Shown here: piece by piece, positions 445 through 31,953 of the stretch
Numbering within the stretch: the first letter of the stretch is position 1
Layout: each line of letters begins with the position of its first letter
Assembly (NCBI GenBank): GCA_016219225.1
Contig: JACRBX010000221.1
Coordinates: 1 to 32,330, forward strand
DNA length: 32,330 nt
Reading direction: 5' to 3'
Source of the DNA: Deltaproteobacteria bacterium
GTDB taxonomy: Bacteria > Desulfobacterota > RBG-13-43-22
Program-made: the position numbers and the translations under genes
Notes under the pieces: generated by a model
Told to the model about the DNA's origin: nothing
Databases searched by the model: none
What the model saw: only the letters and a program-made list of their open reading frames with translations

Positions 445-2316
445 ATGAAGCTAACCCACCAAATCTCAACTCAGCGCCCTTTCAGTTACCCTTTGTACCT
501 GTTTTCGGTCATGACAGTCCTGATCGCCATCCTGATTATCAACGGCTATATTGAAATTCAGAGGACCCGCAGCCAACTGTTTAATATATTAGAAACAGAA
601 GCTTTGCTGGTCATTAAAGGTCTGGAAAAAAATTCCGGCAACCTGATGGCCGCCCTTACCCAGGATCAGTCCTCTTTAATCGCTCCAGGATTAATCGAAA
701 AATCCGAAGAGTCCTTAGGGATTGAAGACCTGCTGATCGAACGTCTCATAAACCTGGCCCTTCAGCTTGATCAGGAGGATTCCCGTAAGGCCTTTGACTC
801 CAGGGCCTTGAAGGACAGGGTGGGCCAACTTGGAGTGCGCCAGGTTTTTTTTCTGAAATCGGACTCCAGGGATTCCGCCTGGGATGCCTTCCCCGCGCCT
901 TTAAGGTCCGGGGTCCCTTTTTTCCATAAGGTCCTGAGCGGCCAGGATCGTCTGGCCGTGTTCAGGGGGGAAGGTCCTTTGCATCGAACCCTTCCTCTGG
1001 CCGTGGCCGTGGCCCGCCGCTTCAGCCAAGGGGCCATCCTGATCGTTCTGTCTTTTGACGAATATGCCTTTTTAAGCCGCCAGATTATTATTCAGGGTTT
1101 TTTGGAAGATTTTTCCGGCAAAGGCAATATCGCCTATTTGAATGTGGAGGAGTCCGGAGGGAAGATTATCGCCCGAACCGGTGAAGGTTTTCTGGCCGGT
1201 CGGGACTTAACCTTCGAGAGAACAGTGATCCGTTCGGGAGATTCCGGTCTTTTCTGGATCAAGGGCAAGGACGGGGAATTTCTGGAAATCCTTCGTCCTT
1301 TCAGGCCGTCGGGTAAGGATTCGGGATGGATTCGATTGGGCCTTTCCTTAAAAGAAATCAATCCTATCATTGAACAGGCCAGAAGACAGACTATCATGAT
1401 GAGCCTCATCCTTCTCGGCCTTGGCCTGGCCGGTCTTTTTTTTATCTTTCGGCTGCAAGGCCGCCACCTTCAAAGAATGAGGGAAATGGAGGACCAGATC
1501 CGTTTAAAGGAGGAACTTTCGGCCATGGGGCAGTTGGCGGCCGGTGTGGCCCATGAAATCAAGAATCCCCTCAACGCCATCAGCCTGGTGGTTCAAAGGT
1601 TGGAAAAAGAGTTTGTCCAGGCTGAGCCGGAGGAGCAGAAAGAATATGAAAAGTTTACCCGGATCGTTCGCAGTGAGATCGACCGGGTCAACCGGATCAT
1701 CGGGCAGTTTCTGATGATGGCCAGACCTCCGGCAATCAGAATGGAAGAACAATCCGTGGTGGACATTCTAAACTATGTGCTTGAGGTGATGGAAGAGGAA
1801 TTCAGGCAAAAAGGCATCAGGGTGATCAAAACCTGGGATGACCAACTCCCCTTGATCCCCCTGGATCGCTTTCAACTCACCCAGGCCTTTATCAATATTT
1901 TTAATAATGCCCTGGAAGCCATGCCGGAGGGGGGGGAGGTTCGACTGGATGTGAAGTGCGTTCAGCGTTCAGCGTTCGGCGTTCGGCGTGAAAAAGAAAC
2001 CTCTGTACATTCGGTTCGGAGTTCGGAGTTCGGAGTTCGGAGTGGGAAAGAAACAGGCTCAAAACGAATAACTCAACACTCCGAACTCCACGGAGATTTC
2101 ATGGAAATCTCTGTGGCCGATACGGGGAAGGGTATTCCCCCGGAAGGATTGAAAAAGATTTTTGCCCCTTATTATACCACCAAAGAAAAAGGGGTGGGGT
2201 TAGGGCTGGCCATCACCCAAAAGATCGTCCAGGCCCATGAAGGAACTTTAGAGGTCCAAAGTCGCGAGAATAAGGGGACCACGGTGGTTGTTCGATTACC
2301 GGTTTCATCCCGGTAA
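445..2316 (+). CDS. Membrane sensor histidine kinase with in-frame repeat insertion
   Basis: This is a 623-residue inner-membrane sensor kinase, probably autophosphorylating His370 and passing phosphate to an unidentified regulator. A first TM segment (about 14-37) is followed by a periplasmic region of about 280 residues, a second TM (about 318-337), HisKA with the H-box VAHEIKNPL, and an HATPase_c domain with N-box NNALEA, DTGKGIP and GVGLGLA. The layout resembles NtrB/AtoS-type kinases. Residues 505-552 are an insertion encoded by 7-bp repeats, placed between the N-box and the DTGKGI motif where relatives have a short loop. No clear Shine-Dalgarno precedes the ATG, and no cognate regulator gene adjoins it. 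Its 3' end is duplicated in diverged form at 3480-3551. Confidence 0.9.
   Translation: MKLTHQISTQRPFSYPLYLFSVMTVLIAILIINGYIEIQRTRSQLFNILETEALLVIKGLEKNSGNLMAALTQDQSSLIAPGLIEKSEESLGIEDLLIERLINLALQLDQEDSRKAFDSRALKDRVGQLGVRQVFFLKSDSRDSAWDAFPAPLRSGVPFFHKVLSGQDRLAVFRGEGPLHRTLPLAVAVARRFSQGAILIVLSFDEYAFLSRQIIIQGFLEDFSGKGNIAYLNVEESGGKIIARTGEGFLAGRDLTFERTVIRSGDSGLFWIKGKDGEFLEILRPFRPSGKDSGWIRLGLSLKEINPIIEQARRQTIMMSLILLGLGLAGLFFIFRLQGRHLQRMREMEDQIRLKEELSAMGQLAAGVAHEIKNPLNAISLVVQRLEKEFVQAEPEEQKEYEKFTRIVRSEIDRVNRIIGQFLMMARPPAIRMEEQSVVDILNYVLEVMEEEFRQKGIRVIKTWDDQLPLIPLDRFQLTQAFINIFNNALEAMPEGGEVRLDVKCVQRSAFGVRREKETSVHSVRSSEFGVRSGKETGSKRITQHSELHGDFMEISVADTGKGIPPEGLKKIFAPYYTTKEKGVGLGLAITQKIVQAHEGTLEVQSRENKGTTVVVRLPVSSR
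1957..2100 (+). repeat. In-frame heptad-repeat insertion in kinase ATPase domain
   Basis: This 144-bp (48-codon) block keeps the frame open. It has GCGTTCA x2, GCGTTCG x2 and GCGTGAA (1958-1992), then GGTTCGG, AGTTCGG x3 and AGTGGGA (2013-2047). Each half ends in an AAGAAAC-like string. The right part contains CGAATAACTC and inverted heptads (ACTCCGA). The encoded peptide includes SSEFGVRS. The same element type sits at the same domain position in the kinase at 6404-7999. Confidence 0.85.
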
Positions 2317-6403: not shown

Positions 6404-7999
6404 TTACCCGGCGGGAATAATAAAATGAAAACTACTGCCCTTTCCAATTCCCGGGCTCTCGGCCCAGATCCGGCCGCCATGAAGTTCAACCAATTTTTTG
6501 GTCAAGGACAACCCTAATCCCGTCCCTTGATATTTACGGTTGAATGAACTGTCCACCTGTTCAAAAGGTAAAAAGATGCGGGCAAGATCCTCCTCTTTGA
6601 TTCCGATCCCGGTGTCCTCAATGCTGATTTTGAGGCCTTCAAAATCAGTGAGGGCCGAGTTATTCGGTGAGGGGTAGGCGTTTGGATTGAAGAGATTTTG
6701 CTCCGAACTCATCACTCCGAACTCCGAACTTTTAACCAAGCCCGCCTTCAGTCGCACACTGCCCCTATCGGGTGTAAACTTCACGGCGTTAGAAATAAGA
6801 TTATAAAGGATCTGTTTCAGTTTGCGTTCATCGGCCCGGATGACCGGCGGAAGGTCTTCAGAGTCGATGCTCAGTTTGATCCCGTGATTAACGGCCTTTT
6901 CTTTGACCATGACCAGGCTGTTTTCCAGCAGGTGCTTCAGAGGGACTTCATTAAGATCGAGTTCCCATTTCCCGGCCTCCACTTTGGTAATATCCAGAAT
7001 ATCATTGATCAGAGACAGGAGGTGCCGGCTGCTGGTGAGGACATCCCCCAGGAACTCCGACTGGGTGGTATTCAACTCCCCATAATTTTTGTCCAGAACC
7101 AATTCGGTAAAGCCGATGATGTGGTTCAGGGGCGTTCGGAGCTCATGACTCATATTGGCCAAAAACTCGCTCTTGGCCTGGTTGGCGGTTTCGGCCTTCT
7201 CCTTGGCTTTCAGTAATTCCTGATTGGTCAGATCCAGGTCCTGGGTTCTCTCCCTGACCCGGTCTTCCAGTTCCATCTGGGTCTTGTGCAAGGCCTCATC
7301 CCGTTCCTGAACTTGTTTAACCATTTCATTAAAACTTTCGGTCAGGAACCCTATTTCGTCTTCACCTTCCTTTACGGCCCGAACCGAATAATCCTTTTGG
7401 GAGGAAATGGACCGGGCGACCTGCGAGAGATGCAGGATGGGACGGGAAATTTTTTTGTGCAGTTTGGAAGCCATAAAAAAAGCCAGGGAAGAGGCTATTA
7501 AAAGAATGAGGAGGGCATTGAAGACATAGCGGCTGAACCGTTCCTGCAGCTCTGACAGGTCGTAATGGATATAGAGGCTCCCCATTTTTTCATTGTCCAG
7601 CATAATTTTGTTGACCATGATGAGCGCCTGGGTTTTGAATTCGTATCCTTCCCCACCGCCCCTGGCCGGAAGGATAGAGGTTTGGGCATTGTCCCGCAGG
7701 TAGGCGGCAAATAACCTGCCGGATGCATCATAAACCCCGGCCGCTTTGATCGGTTTTTCCACCTGCAGGGCCTCCAGACTCTTCTGTGCATTTTCAGCAT
7801 CTTTAAAGACCACCGCGGCCACAACATTTCTTCCTGTTACCTCAGCCAGGATCTGGATTTCCCGGATGATCTTTTTCCGGCACTCCAGATAATCGTATAC
7901 GATGAAGGTCAGACAACTCAAAAGCAGGGTCAATCCGCAGATCAGCATGATCAGCGAGACGAGTTTCCCTTTGATGGAGTTTTTCCAAACTATTTTCAT
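6404..7999 (-). CDS. CHASE8-like sensor histidine kinase with in-frame repeat insertion
   Basis: This is a 531-residue inner-membrane kinase. TM1 (about 12-34) and TM2 (about 158-178) enclose a periplasmic domain resembling CHASE8, the sensor type of YfiN. HAMP (about 179-232), a coiled coil, HisKA (H-box [12 protein letters not shown], His285) and HATPase_c ([25 protein letters not shown]) follow. Its start overlaps the stop of the YfiR gene in an ATGA, so the two are translationally coupled. In Pseudomonas, YfiR restrains a CHASE8-HAMP-GGDEF protein; here the same sensor type appears to drive a kinase. Residues 422-455 are a repeat-derived insertion between N-box and DTGIGI, matching the insertion in the kinase at 445. 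There is no receiver, so partners are probably encoded nearby. Confidence 0.9.
6635..6736 (-). repeat. In-frame heptad-repeat insertion in second kinase
   Basis: This block covers 102 bp (34 codons). On the coding strand it begins with AGTTCGG, AGTTCGG, AGTGATG, AGTTCGG (6730-6703), read in the same frame as in the first kinase and giving [10 protein letters not shown]. Further on it contains CGAATAACTC, also found in the other insertion. The stretch between is proline/asparagine-rich and unlike an ATPase domain. Confidence 0.85.
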
Positions 8000-8559: not shown

Positions 8560-8601
8560 AAAAACCCGAACCCGATGGAGCAGGAAAACGTTTTGTTAGC
8601 T

Positions 8602-8629
8602 ACGGACACACACGAATAGACACAGACCG
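8602..8629 (+). repeat. Heptanucleotide tract (ACGGACA-type)
   Basis: Four degenerate 7-mers are visible: ACGGACA, CACACGA, ATAGACA, CAGACCG. They lie upstream of the YfiR gene. Confidence 0.5.
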
Positions 8630-8670
8630 AGATTCTTTTTGTCAGTTTAGCTTTTTGAAACAACGTCGAC

Positions 8671-14447: not shown

Positions 14448-14500
14448 TATCTTGCTTTGGTCTTCCTTGGCTATTATTTTTCACTTCAGCGGCACTTTTT

Positions 14501-14648
14501 CCGTCATTCCCGAATGTCTTTATCGGGAATCCAGGTTCAAAGGTCTGGTTCCCGGTTTACACCGGGACGGTGTCTGAACCCCGGCGCCTGCCCCGGACCC
14601 TGGATCAAGTTCGGGGCAGGCTCTGATCCGGGGTTCGTCGGGGTGACG
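14501..14648. repeat. REP-like composite palindrome cluster
   Basis: The block starts with CGTCATTCCCG and ATCGGGAAT, continues with nested GC-rich inverted segments (CCCGG/CCGGG; CCCCGG with GTTCGGGGCAGG), and ends with CGGGGTGACGG. It resembles composite CGTCATTCCCG elements such as the one at 26688. It occupies most of the 256-bp gap between the PocR kinase start and the upstream kinase-receiver stop. Confidence 0.6.
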
Positions 14649-14703
14649 GCCCGGGAGACTTTTTAAGAATTCATCATTATTCGACATTCTCTTTGTACTC
14701 GCC

Positions 14704-22973: not shown

Positions 22974-25580
22974 ATGCTTAAAAAAATTCGTTGGAAGTTT
23001 ACTTTGATCGGTATTTTAGCTGCTTTGTCCATTCTTTTGATCATTCCCTCGGTGACTAAGAATTTTCCATCCTGGTGGAGTAAGGTCTTGCCCAGTGAGG
23101 GCCTGCGGCTCGGGCTGGACCTCCAGGGGGGCATGCACCTGATTCTTAAAGTCGATTTAGAGAAGGCCGCCAAGAATTATCTGGAGCTTTCTCAACACGA
23201 CTTACGGGAAACCCTGAGGAAGAAGCAGATCCCGGCCAGTCGCGGGGAAGGCCTGGGCCTGAACCGGCTGACTTTTCTTTTGCCTAATGCCGATCACCTT
23301 CCTGTGGTTCAAAAGACGATTAAGGAGGAATTTCCAACCCTGACCGTTGTTTCAACGGCCCCCAAACCAGAAGGACTCCAGGTGGAACTGGCCCTGAAGG
23401 AAAAAGAAATCAAATCGATCACGGAAAACACCCTGTCACAAAGCCTGGAAATCATCCGGAACCGGATCGATCAATTCGGGGTCACGGAACCGGTCATCGT
23501 GCGACAGGGGACCGATGAAATTGTGGTTCAATTGCCGGGGGTCAAGGATCCTCAGAGGGCTATGGATCTTATCGGCCGGACGGCCCAGTTGGAATTTAAA
23601 TTGTTAGATAGCGAAAGTCGTATCGACCTCCCCAACCTTATTGAACAGGCGGTAAACAGCGGAAGGGTGAAAAAGGATTACAATCATACTGAGTTGAACG
23701 AGGCCCTGAAAGACCAGATTCCTTCGGAAAGGGAAATCTATATTCGAAAAGAAATTAACCGGGAGACCGGCCGGGTTAGCCGCATCCCTGTTTTACTGTA
23801 CGCCAAGGCCCTGATGACCGGCGATGCTATTAAGACAGCCCAGGTCCAGATCGGCGGAAATTTTAATGAACCCTATGTCAGTGTGGAACTCAACGCCCAC
23901 GGGAGCAGACTCTTTGACCAGGTCACCCGGGACAATGTGGGCCGTCAATTAGCGATCGTTTTAGATCAGATCGTCCAGTCCGCCCCGGTCATTCAGGAAA
24001 GGATCTCCGGAGGCCAGGCCCAGATTACCGGGTCTTTTTCCATGGAGGAAGCCAGCGATCTGGCCATTGTCCTGCGGGCCGGTGCCTTGCCGGCTCCGGT
24101 CAATGTCGTTCAAAATGTGACCGTCGGCCCGACCCTTGGATTGGATTCCATACAAAAAGGATTTTTCTCCGGTCTGGTCGGTACGGGACTGGTGGTCTTG
24201 TTTATGATGTATTATTACCGTTTTTCCGGGCTTATCGCCAACTTTGCCCTGATCCTCAATATCCTCTTCATGATAGCCGCCCTGGGGTTGTTCCGGGCTA
24301 CCTTAACCCTGCCGGGCATTGCCGGAATCATTCTGTCCATAGGTATGGCCGTCGATTCCAACGTCCTGATCTTTGAGCGTATGCGGGAAGAATTCGCCCA
24401 GGGCAAACCGGTCAAGTCCGGGGTGGATGGCGGTTACGACAAGGCCTTCTGGACCATTATCGACTCCCACGTCACCACCCTGATCACAGCCTTTGCCCTG
24501 TTTCTTTTCGGATCGGGGCCGATCAAGGGATTTGCCGTCACCTTGAGTATCGGCGTTATCTTCAATCTTTTCACGGCCCTTTTTTGCACCCGGGTGGTCT
24601 ATGACTGGTTGAGCGTCAAACGCCGTCTCAAGCCGATTCGCTTTGTGGAGTTTTTGAAAAAAACCAAATTAGATTTTATCGGTTTGAGAAAATATGCCTT
24701 TATCTTTTCCGGGATTCTCTGCCTGCTGGGCCTGATTGCCTTTGTCCAGATCAACCGGGGCCAGGCCAACCTGGGGGTGGAATTTTCCGGCGGGACCATG
24801 GCTCAGTTCAAGGCCGCTCAACCCTTCCGGCTGGACAAGATTCGAGGGGCCTTGACCCAGAGGGGTTTTAAAGACCTGGAACTCCAACAGGTCGCCCAGG
24901 AAAACATTTTGATGGTCCGGGTTAAAAAATCGGAACATTCCGTTGGAAAAGAGACCGATGCCATTGCCAAGGCCCTCCAGGAGGATTTCCCGGAACTGAA
25001 ATTTGCGGTGGAAAGCAAGGCCGAGATCGGGTCTTCGGTCAGTTCGGCCTTAAAAAAGGCGGCTTTGCTGGCCATTGCCATCTCCCTGGCCGGTATTATT
25101 ATCTACCTGGCCTGGCGCTTTGAGTTCCGTTTCGGGGTAGCCGCGGCCATTGCGACTTTTCATGATGTTCTGGCGGTCCTGGGGCTTTTTTATCTGTTCG
25201 ATAAGGAAATAACCCTGCTGATTGTGACGGCCCTCCTGACCCTGGCCGGTTACTCCCTGACCGATACGGTGGTGGTTTTCGACCGGATCCGGGAGACCAT
25301 GAGCCGAAGCGGGAAAAAAGATTTTGGAGAGATCATTAACCTCAGCATCAACGAAGTCCTTTCCCGGACTATCATCACTTCTTTAACGGTTTTTCTGGTC
25401 GTGCTGGCCCTTTATTTCCTGGGCGGGGTGGTGATTCATGACTTTGCTCTGGCCCTGCTTTTCGGTGTGATTATCGGCACCTATTCCTCCATCTTTGTGG
25501 CCTCGCCCATTGTCTATCTCTGGCCGGGAAAAAAGCAGAAGGGGATTAAAGGGAAGGTGACGGGTAAGAAAGAGAAATGA
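22974..25580 (+). CDS. secDF: SecDF fusion, protein translocase accessory subunit
   Basis: An 868-residue fusion of SecD and SecF, inner-membrane subunits that use proton flow to help preproteins through SecYEG. The SecD part (about 1-555) has TM1, LGLDLQGG (46-53), a large periplasmic domain, and the TM block with GIILSIGMAVDSNVLIFERM. The SecF part (about 560-868) has GVEFSGGT and SLTDTVVVFDRIRE. Twelve TM segments are expected, six per half. Many bacteria keep secD and secF separate; here one frame continues without a break. The ATG at 22974 is chosen because AAAGGGA lies upstream; an in-frame TTG at 22878 would add an unlikely leader. No yajC is adjacent, and it is the only complete plus-strand gene apart from the first kinase. 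Confidence 0.94.
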   Translation: MLKKIRWKFTLIGILAALSILLIIPSVTKNFPSWWSKVLPSEGLRLGLDLQGGMHLILKVDLEKAAKNYLELSQHDLRETLRKKQIPASRGEGLGLNRLTFLLPNADHLPVVQKTIKEEFPTLTVVSTAPKPEGLQVELALKEKEIKSITENTLSQSLEIIRNRIDQFGVTEPVIVRQGTDEIVVQLPGVKDPQRAMDLIGRTAQLEFKLLDSESRIDLPNLIEQAVNSGRVKKDYNHTELNEALKDQIPSEREIYIRKEINRETGRVSRIPVLLYAKALMTGDAIKTAQVQIGGNFNEPYVSVELNAHGSRLFDQVTRDNVGRQLAIVLDQIVQSAPVIQERISGGQAQITGSFSMEEASDLAIVLRAGALPAPVNVVQNVTVGPTLGLDSIQKGFFSGLVGTGLVVLFMMYYYRFSGLIANFALILNILFMIAALGLFRATLTLPGIAGIILSIGMAVDSNVLIFERMREEFAQGKPVKSGVDGGYDKAFWTIIDSHVTTLITAFALFLFGSGPIKGFAVTLSIGVIFNLFTALFCTRVVYDWLSVKRRLKPIRFVEFLKKTKLDFIGLRKYAFIFSGILCLLGLIAFVQINRGQANLGVEFSGGTMAQFKAAQPFRLDKIRGALTQRGFKDLELQQVAQENILMVRVKKSEHSVGKETDAIAKALQEDFPELKFAVESKAEIGSSVSSALKKAALLAIAISLAGIIIYLAWRFEFRFGVAAAIATFHDVLAVLGLFYLFDKEITLLIVTALLTLAGYSLTDTVVVFDRIRETMSRSGKKDFGEIINLSINEVLSRTIITSLTVFLVVLALYFLGGVVIHDFALALLFGVIIGTYSSIFVASPIVYLWPGKKQKGIKGKVTGKKEK

Positions 25581-25635
25581 GAAAGGCGTTCGGCTCGAAG
25601 AGGGGTGGACGAGGGCGCCACGAAACATGAAAAAG

Positions 25636-25704
25636 CGAATATCGAATATCGAATCATGAATGTTGAAGGAGCGTTTCTTTTAAATTCCGAAATCCGAAAT
25701 TGGA
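25636..25704 (+). repeat. Heptanucleotide tracts (CGAATAT- and ATTCCGA-types)
   Basis: CGAATAT, CGAATAT, CGAATCA, TGAATGT run from 25636 to 25663. After a 20-bp gap a second short tract reads ATTCCGA, AATCCGA, AATTGGA (25684-25704). They begin the gene-free stretch between secDF and the receiver at 25970, which is almost wholly repeats. Confidence 0.7.
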
Positions 25705-25707
25705 ATC

Positions 25708-25843
25708 TATTTTCGTACTAAGCGCTCATGCCCGGGTCGGGCACTACGAAGAATGAAAATGTCTTTCGCCGACCCCCGATCCCTGAACGTTATTTTCGTA
25801 TTAAACCCGCATGCCCGGGGCGGGCAACACGAAGCATGAAAAT
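25708..25843 (+). repeat. Two 53-bp direct repeats, 83 bp apart
   Basis: Copies at 25708-25760 and 25791-25843 are the same length and agree at 45 of 53 positions by my count. Both start TATTTTCGTA, include ATGCCCGGG and CGGGCA (a short palindrome), and end ATGAAAAT. A partial copy (GTTTTCGTGTTAATGCG) runs into the stop codon of the receiver gene at 25970. Confidence 0.75.
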
Positions 25844-25850
25844 TTTTTTA

Positions 25851-25899
25851 GGCTATAGGCTATGGGCAATAGGCGAGGGGCAAGGTACAAGGTTTAAGG
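25851..25899 (+). repeat. Heptanucleotide tract (GGCTATA-type)
   Basis: Seven 7-mers in register: GGCTATA, GGCTATG, GGCAATA, GGCGAGG, GGCAAGG, TACAAGG, TTTAAGG. A shorter relative is at 31433-31460. Confidence 0.75.
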
Positions 25900-25923
25900 T
25901 TTTTTTCACTTGCTTCTCTTCAA

Positions 25924-25958
25924 CTGACCCCCGACCCCTGGCCCGTGGTCCCCGAACT
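25924..25958 (+). repeat. Heptanucleotide tract (CTGACCC-type)
   Basis: Five 7-mers in register: CTGACCC, CCGACCC, CTGGCCC, GTGGTCC, CCGAACT. It ends 11 bp before the stop codon of the receiver gene. Confidence 0.65.
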
Positions 25959-25969
25959 TTGTTTTCGTG

Positions 25970-26407
25970 TTAATGCGTTGGAGAAGACTCAAGCCGTTTA
26001 ATCTTTTCTATAATGGCTGACCCAAGGACCTTTTTCCCGTTCAGGATATGTTCGATGGAATGAATCAGTTCGGAGCGGGCGGTATCTTTTAATAGATATC
26101 CATCGGCTCCGGCCTGGAGGGTGGCCTGGATATATTCCTCAGAATTATGGACGGTGAAGGCCAGGATTTTAGTCTCGGGCCAATTTTTTTTGATTTCACG
26201 GGTGGCGGCCATACCATCCATCCGGGGCATCGATATATCCATTAAAACCAGGTCAGGAAGGAATTTATTAACGGAATCGATGGCCTCAAAACCATCCCCG
26301 GCCTCGCCGACAATATCGAAATCCTGATGAGACGTCAGAAGGGATCGTAATCCTTCTCTCAAAGCGGGATGGTCATCGACAATCAGGATACGCTTCTTTT
26401 TTTTCAT
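25970..26407 (-). CDS. NarL-type receiver without DNA-binding domain (copy 1)
   Basis: A 145-residue single-receiver protein of the NarL/FixJ type: ILIVDDHPALREGLRSLL, Asp57 (LVLMDISMPRMDG), Thr and Lys switch residues (FTVHN, LLKDT). The C-terminal LuxR HTH expected in this family is absent. The protein stops in the inter-domain linker, and the stop codon lies in repeat DNA (TTAACACG). It is about 70% identical by eye to the receiver at 31528. It has a good sigma70 promoter of its own and lies on the 3' side of the HisKA_3 kinase, the kinase class that normally pairs with NarL receivers. Confidence 0.88.
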   Translation of the reverse strand: MKKKKRILIVDDHPALREGLRSLLTSHQDFDIVGEAGDGFEAIDSVNKFLPDLVLMDISMPRMDGMAATREIKKNWPETKILAFTVHNSEEYIQATLQAGADGYLLKDTARSELIHSIEHILNGKKVLGSAIIEKIKRLESSPTH

Positions 26408-26467: not shown

Positions 26468-26687
26468 CGTTTATTTGGGATAAATTTATGGTATAAGAAT
26501 TTATTTTTTGGACGCTGATGAACTCGGATCGTCAGATTTTCGCCAATCGTGCCGATTGTCAAGATTTTGAATATAAAGAATGATGAACTCGTAAAAAGCT
26601 ATGAAACGCCGCATTGCGGCGCTGTATCAGAAAATAACTTGGCAATAAAAAAGCTAAGTTATTTGGAAGTCGGAACTCGTCTCTTTT

Positions 26688-26767
26688 CGTCATTCCCGCG
26701 AAGGCGGGAATCAAGTCCTTTTAAGTGGTTACGGTTAGCCTGGATTCCCGCCTTCGCGGGAATGACG
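26688..26767. repeat. REP/BIME-like element with perfect 25-bp terminal inverted repeats
   Basis: The arm at 26688-26712 begins CGTCATTCCCGCGAAGG; its exact complement is at 26743-26767, with a 30-bp spacer. Each arm is itself a small hairpin (ATTCCCGC-GAAG-GCGGGAAT). This resembles widespread REP doublets; no transposase is near. Confidence 0.85.
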
Positions 26768-31325: not shown

Positions 31326-31432
31326 CATAAAAAAGCAAAAAGTCAGGAGCTTCTTTCTGACGGTTTTAACGGATTATGTAGTATAGAAGGGAAGCCGTGA
31401 GGGCGCCGTGACTAAAGGAAATAACATCACGA

Positions 31433-31460
31433 GGCTATGGGCGATGGGCCAGGGGCAATA
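31433..31460 (+). repeat. Heptanucleotide tract (GGCTATG-type)
   Basis: Four 7-mers: GGCTATG, GGCGATG, GGCCAGG, GGCAATA. Same family and orientation as 25851-25899. Confidence 0.7.
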
Positions 31461-31478
31461 GGTTCAGGTTTTCCATAC

Positions 31479-31506
31479 TTGAAACTTGCATCTTGCATCT
31501 TGAAAC
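31479..31506 (+). repeat. Heptanucleotide tract (TTGCATC-type)
   Basis: Four 7-mers: TTGAAAC, TTGCATC, TTGCATC, TTGAAAC, then TTT. This is the counterpart of 400-427. Confidence 0.75.
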
Positions 31507-31527
31507 TTTATTTATTCCCGTGTTAAT

Positions 31528-31953
31528 TTAATGAAGCCCCAACCCTCCCCACTTTCCCTCGACCGACGAACTCAGGACCTGATTTCCATCCAGGACCTTA
31601 ACAATGGATCGAATCAAATCCGATTGAGGGGAATCCTTTAGGACATAGCCATCGGCTCCGGCTTTGAGAGCGGCGAAGACGTATTCTTCGGTATCATGGA
31701 CGGTAAAAGCCAGGATTTTCGTTTTGGGCCATCTTTTTTTGATTTCCCGTGTGGCCGCCATGCCGTCCATGCGAGGCATGGAAAGATCCATCAAAACCAG
31801 GTCGGGATGGAATTTGTCCACTGACTGAACAGCCTCCAGGCCGTCTCCGGCCTCACCCACGATATCGAAGCCATGGCAGGAGGAGAGAAGAGAGCGCAAT
31901 CCCTCCCGGAGGGATTGGTTATCATCAACAATAAGGATATGCTTTTTAGTCAT
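31528..31953 (-). CDS. NarL-type receiver without DNA-binding domain (copy 2)
   Basis: A 141-residue receiver, paralogous to the one at 25970: ILIVDDNQSLREGLRSLL, Asp56 (LVLMDLSMPRMDG), FTVHDTEEY, VLKDS. The LuxR HTH is absent again; after the last receiver helix comes SSSVEGKWGGLGLH and a stop. TTAACACG lies three bases beyond the stop, as at copy 1. It is upstream of the large HisKA_3 kinase in the same direction (259-bp gap), so the kinase is a plausible partner. AAAGG lies 11 bases before the ATG. Output must be through protein contacts or phosphotransfer rather than DNA binding. Confidence 0.88.
   Translation of the reverse strand: MTKKHILIVDDNQSLREGLRSLLSSCHGFDIVGEAGDGLEAVQSVDKFHPDLVLMDLSMPRMDGMAATREIKKRWPKTKILAFTVHDTEEYVFAALKAGADGYVLKDSPQSDLIRSIVKVLDGNQVLSSSVEGKWGGLGLH

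Follow-up and report, generated by a model that had tools for sequence, protein, structure and literature searches.

The cyanobacterial STRRs are repeats of 7-bp period that, to our knowledge, have not been described inside hairpin-ended cassettes. Fixed ends flanking a variable tandem module of about 45 bp characterize the pneumococcal BOX elements. An excess of heptanucleotide SSRs in prokaryotes was reported by Mrazek in 2007, as cited in PMC4692102 and PMC4679880, which put the 7-nt preference down to slippage and polymerase contact length and give GGGAATC in Xanthomonas and TAACTGA in Beggiatoaceae as examples. In Geobacter metallireducens, multicopy heptanucleotide and paired octanucleotide elements have been interpreted as regulator sites (PMC2700814). 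The REP, BIME and REPIN sequences and the CGTC-tagged repeats (PMC3733652, PMC3116915) are short, palindromic, high-copy intergenic repeats devoid of an internal transposase, while the PATEs, derived from IS200/IS605, are non-autonomous elements with a hairpin near the end and a short fixed junction core (PMC3119063).

The window analyzed here, by which we mean the whole stretch of 32,330 nucleotides, belongs to a deltaproteobacterial genome of 5.93 Mb in 353 contigs (G000). Its gap between secDF, whose stop lies at 25580, and a convergent receiver gene (25970-26407, minus strand) is made of three head-to-tail copies of one short interspersed cassette, all on the plus strand and together occupying 25581-25973. 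Cassette 1 opens with a left end (25586-25633) comprising a degenerate hairpin and the core CGCCACGAAACATGAAAA at 25616-25633, with 2 mismatches to the left-end consensus CACCACGAAGCATGAAAA. Its cargo has two heptad arms, CGAATAT (25636-25654, 2.7 copies, 100% match by TRF) and AATTCCG/AATCCGA (25683-25706, lag-7 identity 0.76), and it closes with the consensus right end TATTTTCGTACTAA (25708-25721), whose TAA is common to cassette 2. The latter comprises a left end (25722-25760) with the hairpin TGCCCG/CGGGCA, which displays compensatory changes, and CACTACGAAGAATGAAAAT, the cargo GTCTTTCGCCGACCCCCGATCCCTGAACGT (25761-25790), a short form of what we call subfamily B, and the right end TATTTTCGTATTAA (25791-25804). 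Cassette 3 starts with a hairpin and CAACACGAAGCATGAAAAT (25805-25843, core 25825-25842), carries the heptad GGCTATA/GGCAATA in its first arm (25851-25883, lag-7 identity 0.73; TRF rows 25849-25883) and the degenerate heptad CTGACCC/CCGACCC in its second (25923-25956), and ends with TGTTTTCGTGTTAA (25960-25973), which runs into the receiver gene's stop codon. An Rfam search of 25500-26000 returned no family match up to E=1.

The original prediction, which described the gap as consecutive heptamer tracts with two 53-bp direct repeats, is therefore partly confirmed as an observation and partly supported in its interpretation. Period-7 tracts do fill positions 25581-25969, where lag-7 self-identity reaches 0.44, the highest value among lags 2-24, against a null of 0.25 (sd 0.02; maximum of 2000 shuffles 0.34). 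Among the named tracts, CGAATAT, (A)TTCCGA and GGCTATA stand out clearly, as also reflected by the TRF calls CGAATAT (25636-25654), TCCGAAA (25686-25700) and TAGGCTA (25849-25874), while CTGACCC does so less strongly (lag-7 identity 0.63). A recurring hairpin-bearing element sits between the tracts, so that they do not follow one another directly. The two 53-bp repeats are present at 25709-25761 and 25792-25844. They are right-end/left-end junctions of a dispersed cassette, the first being the junction between right end 1 and left end 2 on the plus strand, and the differing 7-mer tracts are its cargo. Several unrelated tracts thus stand together because the gap is a cassette triple, with the 53-bp repeats as its junctions.

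Each unit runs from TAA to TAA. After the first TAA, the left end comprises RCCCTCATGCCC, a hairpin (with ..CATGCCC) and GGGCACCACGAAGCATGAAAAT, with CACCACGAAGCATGAAAAT as its conserved stretch; a variable cargo follows, and then the right end TATTTTCGTAYTAA. In the source genome, the left-end core GGCACCACGAAGCATGAAAA returns 258 sites at up to 2 mismatches and its reversed control none; junction-like sites derived from the 53-bp repeats number 106 genome-wide (reversed control 0), and the CGAATAT pattern 307 at up to 3 mismatches (reversed control 11). Period and boundary statistics were obtained on a 1.12-Mb sample (19% of this genome) picked in part from contigs rich in repeats, so that absolute rates may be inflated, which does not explain the contrast between lags reported below. 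Within this sample, the left-end consensus matches 174 sites at up to 4 mismatches and the reversed pattern 7. Conservation drops sharply at both TAAs: information content is mostly 0-0.25 bit/site to the left of the TAA, with one position at 0.38 (55 non-tandem left ends), and about 0-0.1 bit beyond the right TAAA (83 terminal right ends). Sixty chains with both ends were recovered (47 single, 12 double and 1 triple) in which neighbors share one TAA; all have TAA on both sides, which was a requirement of their selection. The boundary falls between YTAA and R, and the bases adjoining the two TAAs are uncorrelated, target-site duplication and fixed core looking alike here. Insertion aimed at stop codons was rejected as an explanation, the left TAA being the stop of a long open reading frame in 4 of the 60 chains as compared with 5.75% for random TAA.

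The left hairpin, with its foot CTCA-TGCCC...GGGCA-CCACG, covaries. In the source genome, hairpin I has 30 double-compensated cells versus 13±3 when the arms are shuffled (maximum 23 of 500), and among 18 sequences of many lineages 10 compensated cells are found versus 2.0±1.2, a value that none of 500 shuffles reaches, with one position exhibiting the pair types CG, AU, GC and UA. The arms read TGCCC/GGGCA in the source genome, TGTTC/GAACA in Desulfobacca, TGAGCG/CGCTCA in G168 and TGGCGC/GCGCCA in G322. The right-end stem GAAAAT/ATTTTC is too constant in the source genome for covariation to show; in Desulfobacca it becomes GAAAAC/GTTTTT, and pairing fits by inspection. Obligate hairpins formed by the cargo arms themselves were tried and rejected as a general rule, since 24 of 91 have z below -2 versus 9 of 120 control segments, with a median of about 0. 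Some cargos have a period of 8 instead of 7 (CCTGGAAT and GCGTAGAG; L048 at 6819, L142, and L238 at 9812).

Cassettes of closely related cargo are found at unrelated loci of the source genome. In the 1.12-Mb sample, subfamily B (CACTACGAAGAATGAAAATGTCTTTCGCC...) comprises about 13 nearly identical copies, most of which hold one more 14-bp unit (GACCCCCGATCCCT) than cassette 2 of the window, and subfamily A, with CGAATAT and ATCCGAA arms, has 10 copies with varying numbers of each heptad. Copy number thus varies for CGAATAT, ATCCGAA and GACCCCCGATCCCT, and within one subfamily the change is by whole units (7 or 14 bp). Across the phylum, the left end was detected in 48 of 395 genomes from about 35 families with a patchy distribution, the control giving 1 match in all. 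It is abundant in unrelated families, with 234 copies in the source genome, 229 in G115, 76 in G002, 52 in G168 and 37 in G224, although these counts vary with the threshold (258 in the source genome at up to 2 mismatches, 171 in G224 at up to 3). Exact 22-mer left-end matches occur in MAGs of Chloroflexi, Clostridia (Moorellales), Symbiobacterium, Candidatus Acetocimmeria, Thermodesulfovibrionia, Fimbriimonas and Deltaproteobacteria. By eye, the junction core depends on the lineage, being TAA here and TAG-A/TAG, CAAA or others elsewhere. A phage or plasmid origin was rejected, as viral contigs gave no exact match and plasmids and phages no blastn match. Orthologous spacers in relatives are devoid of the cassette unit; base-exact empty sites were not recovered among the spacers compared because the intergenic DNA has diverged too far. 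In G010, a genome of another family, a cassette with the variant left end GACACAACGAAGCATGAAAA is present three times (L060, L069, L075), with near-identical palindromic cargo and the right end ATATTTTCATA.

Desulfobacca acetoxidans (G224), a cultured organism with a closed genome (published for strain ASRB2T, 3,282,536 bp; PMC3156406), has 171 left ends at up to 3 mismatches and none with the reversed pattern. In the first 160 kb sampled, all 8 heptad runs fall within the 2.9% of the DNA that surrounds left ends. No replication-strand bias is claimed for these copies, because the windows sampled were partly chosen from plus-strand hits. Its heptads GGCTCAC, CTGCCCA and TTACCTC are unlike those of the source genome. 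Cargo lengths form a ladder of 43/50/57/64/71/78, 50 of the 71 cargos falling in a single residue class modulo 7, and the left-end spacings peak at 100, 107, 114 and 121; as most Desulfobacca cargos belong to one subfamily, this ladder arises within one family and not from independent events. Two other genomes of the genus, G093 and G402, have no cassette copy, which, like the orthologous spacers devoid of the unit, speaks for gain.

The period itself is a property of the whole genome. In the 1.12-Mb sample, we counted 98 exact runs of 12 or more matched bases at lag 7, together with 65 at lag 14, 19 at lag 21 and 4 at lag 28, as against 0-4 at each of the lags from 2 to 30 that are not multiples of 7, and an order-3 Markov control has none at lags 7, 14 and 21. 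The signal is weaker in the same-genus genome G002, with 9, 12 and 6 runs at lags 7, 14 and 21. An excess of period 7 elsewhere in the genome, on which the original prediction had staked its case, is thus present, and its statement that the period is constant while the sequence is not agrees with the many distinct 7-mers behind this very strong excess. The common copying mechanism that it proposed fits as well, because cassettes that are nearly identical but lie at separate loci frequently show a length difference of 7 or 14 bp. Its other suggestion, a shared structural need, is weakly supported, for the cargo is mostly not foldable and about one fifth of the tracts have an inverted partner nearby: a reverse-complement partner (at least 14/18, within about 130 bp) was found for 28 of 128 tracts, versus 12 for direct partners and 3 for the control.

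Heptads and cassettes are nevertheless separable, and the cassette is a heptad carrier in some lineages. In the sample of the source genome, 64 of the 145 heptad runs of at least 11 matches (44%) lie near a left end, in 3.4% of the DNA, and 14 lie near a right end only, in 1.0% of the DNA; the other 67 (46%) are outside recognizable cassettes, 33 of them in long open frames. Several chains, GAATTCA then CTTCTGG or ATTGCGG then AAGGTTC (L127, L154, L136 and L147), have no cassette ends, which implies that several heptads can gather by another route. Cassettes contain only 2 of the 12 heptad runs of G002, and G115, although rich in cassettes, shows no heptads. Outside the family of the source genome and Desulfobacca, a strict test finds heptads in 1 of 72 cassettes (0.3 expected) and a looser one in 6 of 80 (0.7 expected), the latter test yielding padding artefacts at lags 4-6 and in the row of at least 13 at lag 7. 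A heptad engine residing in every cassette was therefore rejected, since most cassettes of other lineages lack heptads. Cargo lengths in the source genome point to the same 7-bp step: 35 of the 51 cargos of up to 53 bp measure 18, 25, 32, 39, 46 or 53 bp. The gap sizes among subfamily pairs of this genome are noisy and tell rather against it, 129 of 574 gaps of at least 4 bp being multiples of 7, a value only modestly above chance.

Compared with the described systems, the arrays group with the known heptanucleotide repeats, while the cassette apparently is an undescribed variant of the short interspersed palindromic repeats. Like prokaryotic heptanucleotide SSRs, the arrays are tandem, mainly intergenic and steadier in period than in sequence, and slippage has been proposed for those SSRs; here, in contrast, many unrelated heptads coexist in one genome, nearly half of them inside a dispersed cassette with fixed ends. 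The parallel drawn earlier with the STRRs is one of period only, and heptanucleotide excess is a general bacterial feature. The BOX elements share the principle of fixed ends and a variable module but are unrelated in sequence, and their module is about 45 bp instead of 7. The Geobacter elements resemble the cassette heptads in being multicopy 7-mers of four or five units, some of them paired on opposite strands, that lie both inside genes and between them, whereas common left and right ends are not reported for them (PMC2700814). The cassette shares with REPs its shortness, palindromic character, high copy number, intergenic location and lack of an internal transposase. Unlike REPs, it carries neither a GTAG nor a CGTC tag at the foot of the hairpin, its ends are asymmetric, its cargo is long and variable, and Y1 genes are not adjacent. 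As in PATEs, secondary structure is subterminal and a short motif is common to the left junction and the right end; unlike PATEs, no parent insertion sequence with these ends was found and Y1 is not always present. The terminal inverted repeats of MITEs are absent, the only inverted pair being the internal GAAAAT/ATTTTC, and the cassette likewise lacks the defining features of REPs and integron cassettes. A text search for the left-end sequence returned no paper among open-licence papers, and neither the cassette nor its association with heptads appears to have been described in the literature searched.

We consider it fairly probable that the gap consists of tandem copies of a mobile, non-autonomous cassette with arrays in its variable loop that are altered through slippage in 7-bp steps. 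The clean boundaries, the core common to tandem units, the covarying hairpin and the shortness would fit processing of folded single-stranded DNA. Copies would be cut and joined at a core that varies with the lineage (TAA in this genome), the enzyme responsible would recognize a folded single strand and act in trans, and the right-end stem GAAAAT/ATTTTC would close a loop tolerant of added DNA. Replication slippage with a 7-nt preference, which is the simplest account of the arrays and follows Mrazek 2007 as cited in PMC4692102 and PMC4679880, would create and resize the arrays in this loop, and the cassettes would disperse them. As arrays exist without cassettes, the 7-bp bias would be a separate property of the replication machinery. 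An autonomous copy, with a left end and a distant right end enclosing a gene, was not found in the 1.12 Mb of the source genome.

Opinion is evenly balanced on whether these are ordinary heptanucleotide SSRs, arising by 7-nt slippage wherever DNA is free to vary, with the hairpin repeats as unrelated intergenic neighbors. The bacterial period-7 excess is documented and ascribed to polymerase contact length in PMC4692102 and PMC4679880, 46% of the heptad runs of the source genome lie outside cassettes, coding DNA included, and many cassettes of other families are devoid of heptads; against this, 44% of the runs are concentrated in 3.4% of the DNA around left ends, all eight of Desulfobacca likewise lie around left ends, and the cassettes that carry arrays are spread as complete units whose ends are fixed. 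Doubtful, though possible, is an origin as non-autonomous derivatives of IS200/IS605-type elements, similar to palindrome-associated elements or RAYT-mobilized REPs, in which Y1 would join folded ends at a fixed core. The two-hairpin anatomy, the covariation and the short fixed core at both junctions are what this would predict, and the presence of 3 Y1 hits in Desulfobacca (171 copies), with none in the cassette-free G093 of the same genus, is suggestive; the source genome has 4. However, about 34 Y1-transposase loci were examined and no left end was seen within about 1.5 kb of any of them, Y1 hits are absent from three genomes (all MAGs) that match the left end exactly, and inspection of the sequence reveals neither a GTAG or CGTC tag beside the hairpin nor an obvious guide complementary to TAA. 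A parent element combining the cassette ends with Y1 was found neither in the 1.12 Mb nor near Y1 loci. With no adjacency and no hit in the three carrier MAGs, Y1 was rejected as a proven mover and is kept as a rival. One Y1 gene of the source genome (L056, G000:C155:25892-29116) is flanked by AGTCAGGCAGGATGCCTGACCTATT palindromes and plausibly forms with them a pair of the REP/RAYT kind, unrelated to the cassette.

Functional RNA or DNA elements under selection (terminators, mRNA stabilizers or regulator sites), with the 7-bp phase serving as a ruler for protein binding, a role suggested for the elements of Geobacter metallireducens, seem unlikely. Cassettes are mostly intergenic and often located directly 5' of a start codon or at the stop of a convergent gene, their hairpin covaries, and the Geobacter precedents were interpreted as regulator sites (PMC2700814). 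Yet proximity to a start codon, observed for 23 of 60 cassettes, compares with 22% for random TAA, copy number ranges from 0 to 171 within one genus, cargo sequence and presence vary at orthologous spacers, and Rfam gave no match. We give little credence to a distinct cross-phylum class of single-strand-processed cassettes whose loop grows by a 7-nt ruler of enzyme or template and not by general slippage; such a ruler would explain the 7-bp ladder common to unrelated cargos, the fixed period with varying 7-mers and the concentration of arrays in cassettes. Finally, the TAA junctions are most improbably attC-like folded sites of integron-like cassettes for a tyrosine recombinase: tandem units do have one core in common, the junction forms an imperfect palindrome with two stems and cargo varies by unit, but the attC R-box GTTRRRY/RYYYAAC is absent at the boundary, the cargo contains no genes, and the junctions are scattered instead of forming one array.

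Within the reading that we prefer, a mobile cassette with slipping arrays, the locus offers access to an old observation: the 7-bp dominance in bacteria has been noted since 2007, with no more than a guess on polymerase contact length to explain it. As near-identical cassettes are natural replicates of one array that differ by whole 7-bp units, and Desulfobacca is cultured, the origin of the 7-bp step becomes testable. With its covarying hairpin and an exact sequence common to several phyla, the cassette looks like an uncatalogued mobile repeat. It also calls for caution in annotation, since arrays are called as short proteins and turn up as in-frame inserts in real ones.

Elsewhere in the window, three of the four outlying tracts listed by the original prediction hold, at 400-427, 31433-31460 and 31479-31506 (lag-7 identity 0.86, 0.71 and 0.81). 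The fourth, 8602-8629, is not a heptamer (lag-7 identity 0.14, lag-10 0.61): the stretch 8595-8630, ACGGACACACACGAATAGACACAGACC, follows a lag-10 pattern without lag 7, and a similar one occurs in L031 near 2280. The heptad TTGCAAC (400-429, strand not assigned) is outside any recognizable cassette, while 31433-31460 and 31479-31506 belong to what we infer to be a degenerate fourth cassette with eroded ends (31350-31525, plus strand), beside a second receiver gene (31528-31953, minus strand). The two receiver genes (25970-26407 and 31528-31953) are paralogous and the 3' end of each is abutted by a cassette with the same type of cargo; the insertion may predate the duplication of the receiver, or the site may have been reused. 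Stronger tracts, detected by TRF and overlooked earlier, lie inside genes: GCGTTCA/GTTCGGA (1958-2043, plus strand) in frame within a histidine-kinase CDS (445-2316), and CTCCGAA (6701-6730, minus strand) within another (6404-7999, minus strand). Both in-frame arrays are located in the ATPase regions of these kinases, encode peptides such as SEFGVRSSEFGVRS and likely occupy a tolerated insertion loop. Lastly, copies of a CGTC-type repeat, CGTCATTCCCG...CGGGAATCCAG, are present at 14490-14660 and about 26600-26700, one frame reading FPRRRESSPFKWLRLAWIPAFAGMT, and the same repeat is also found as cassette cargo.
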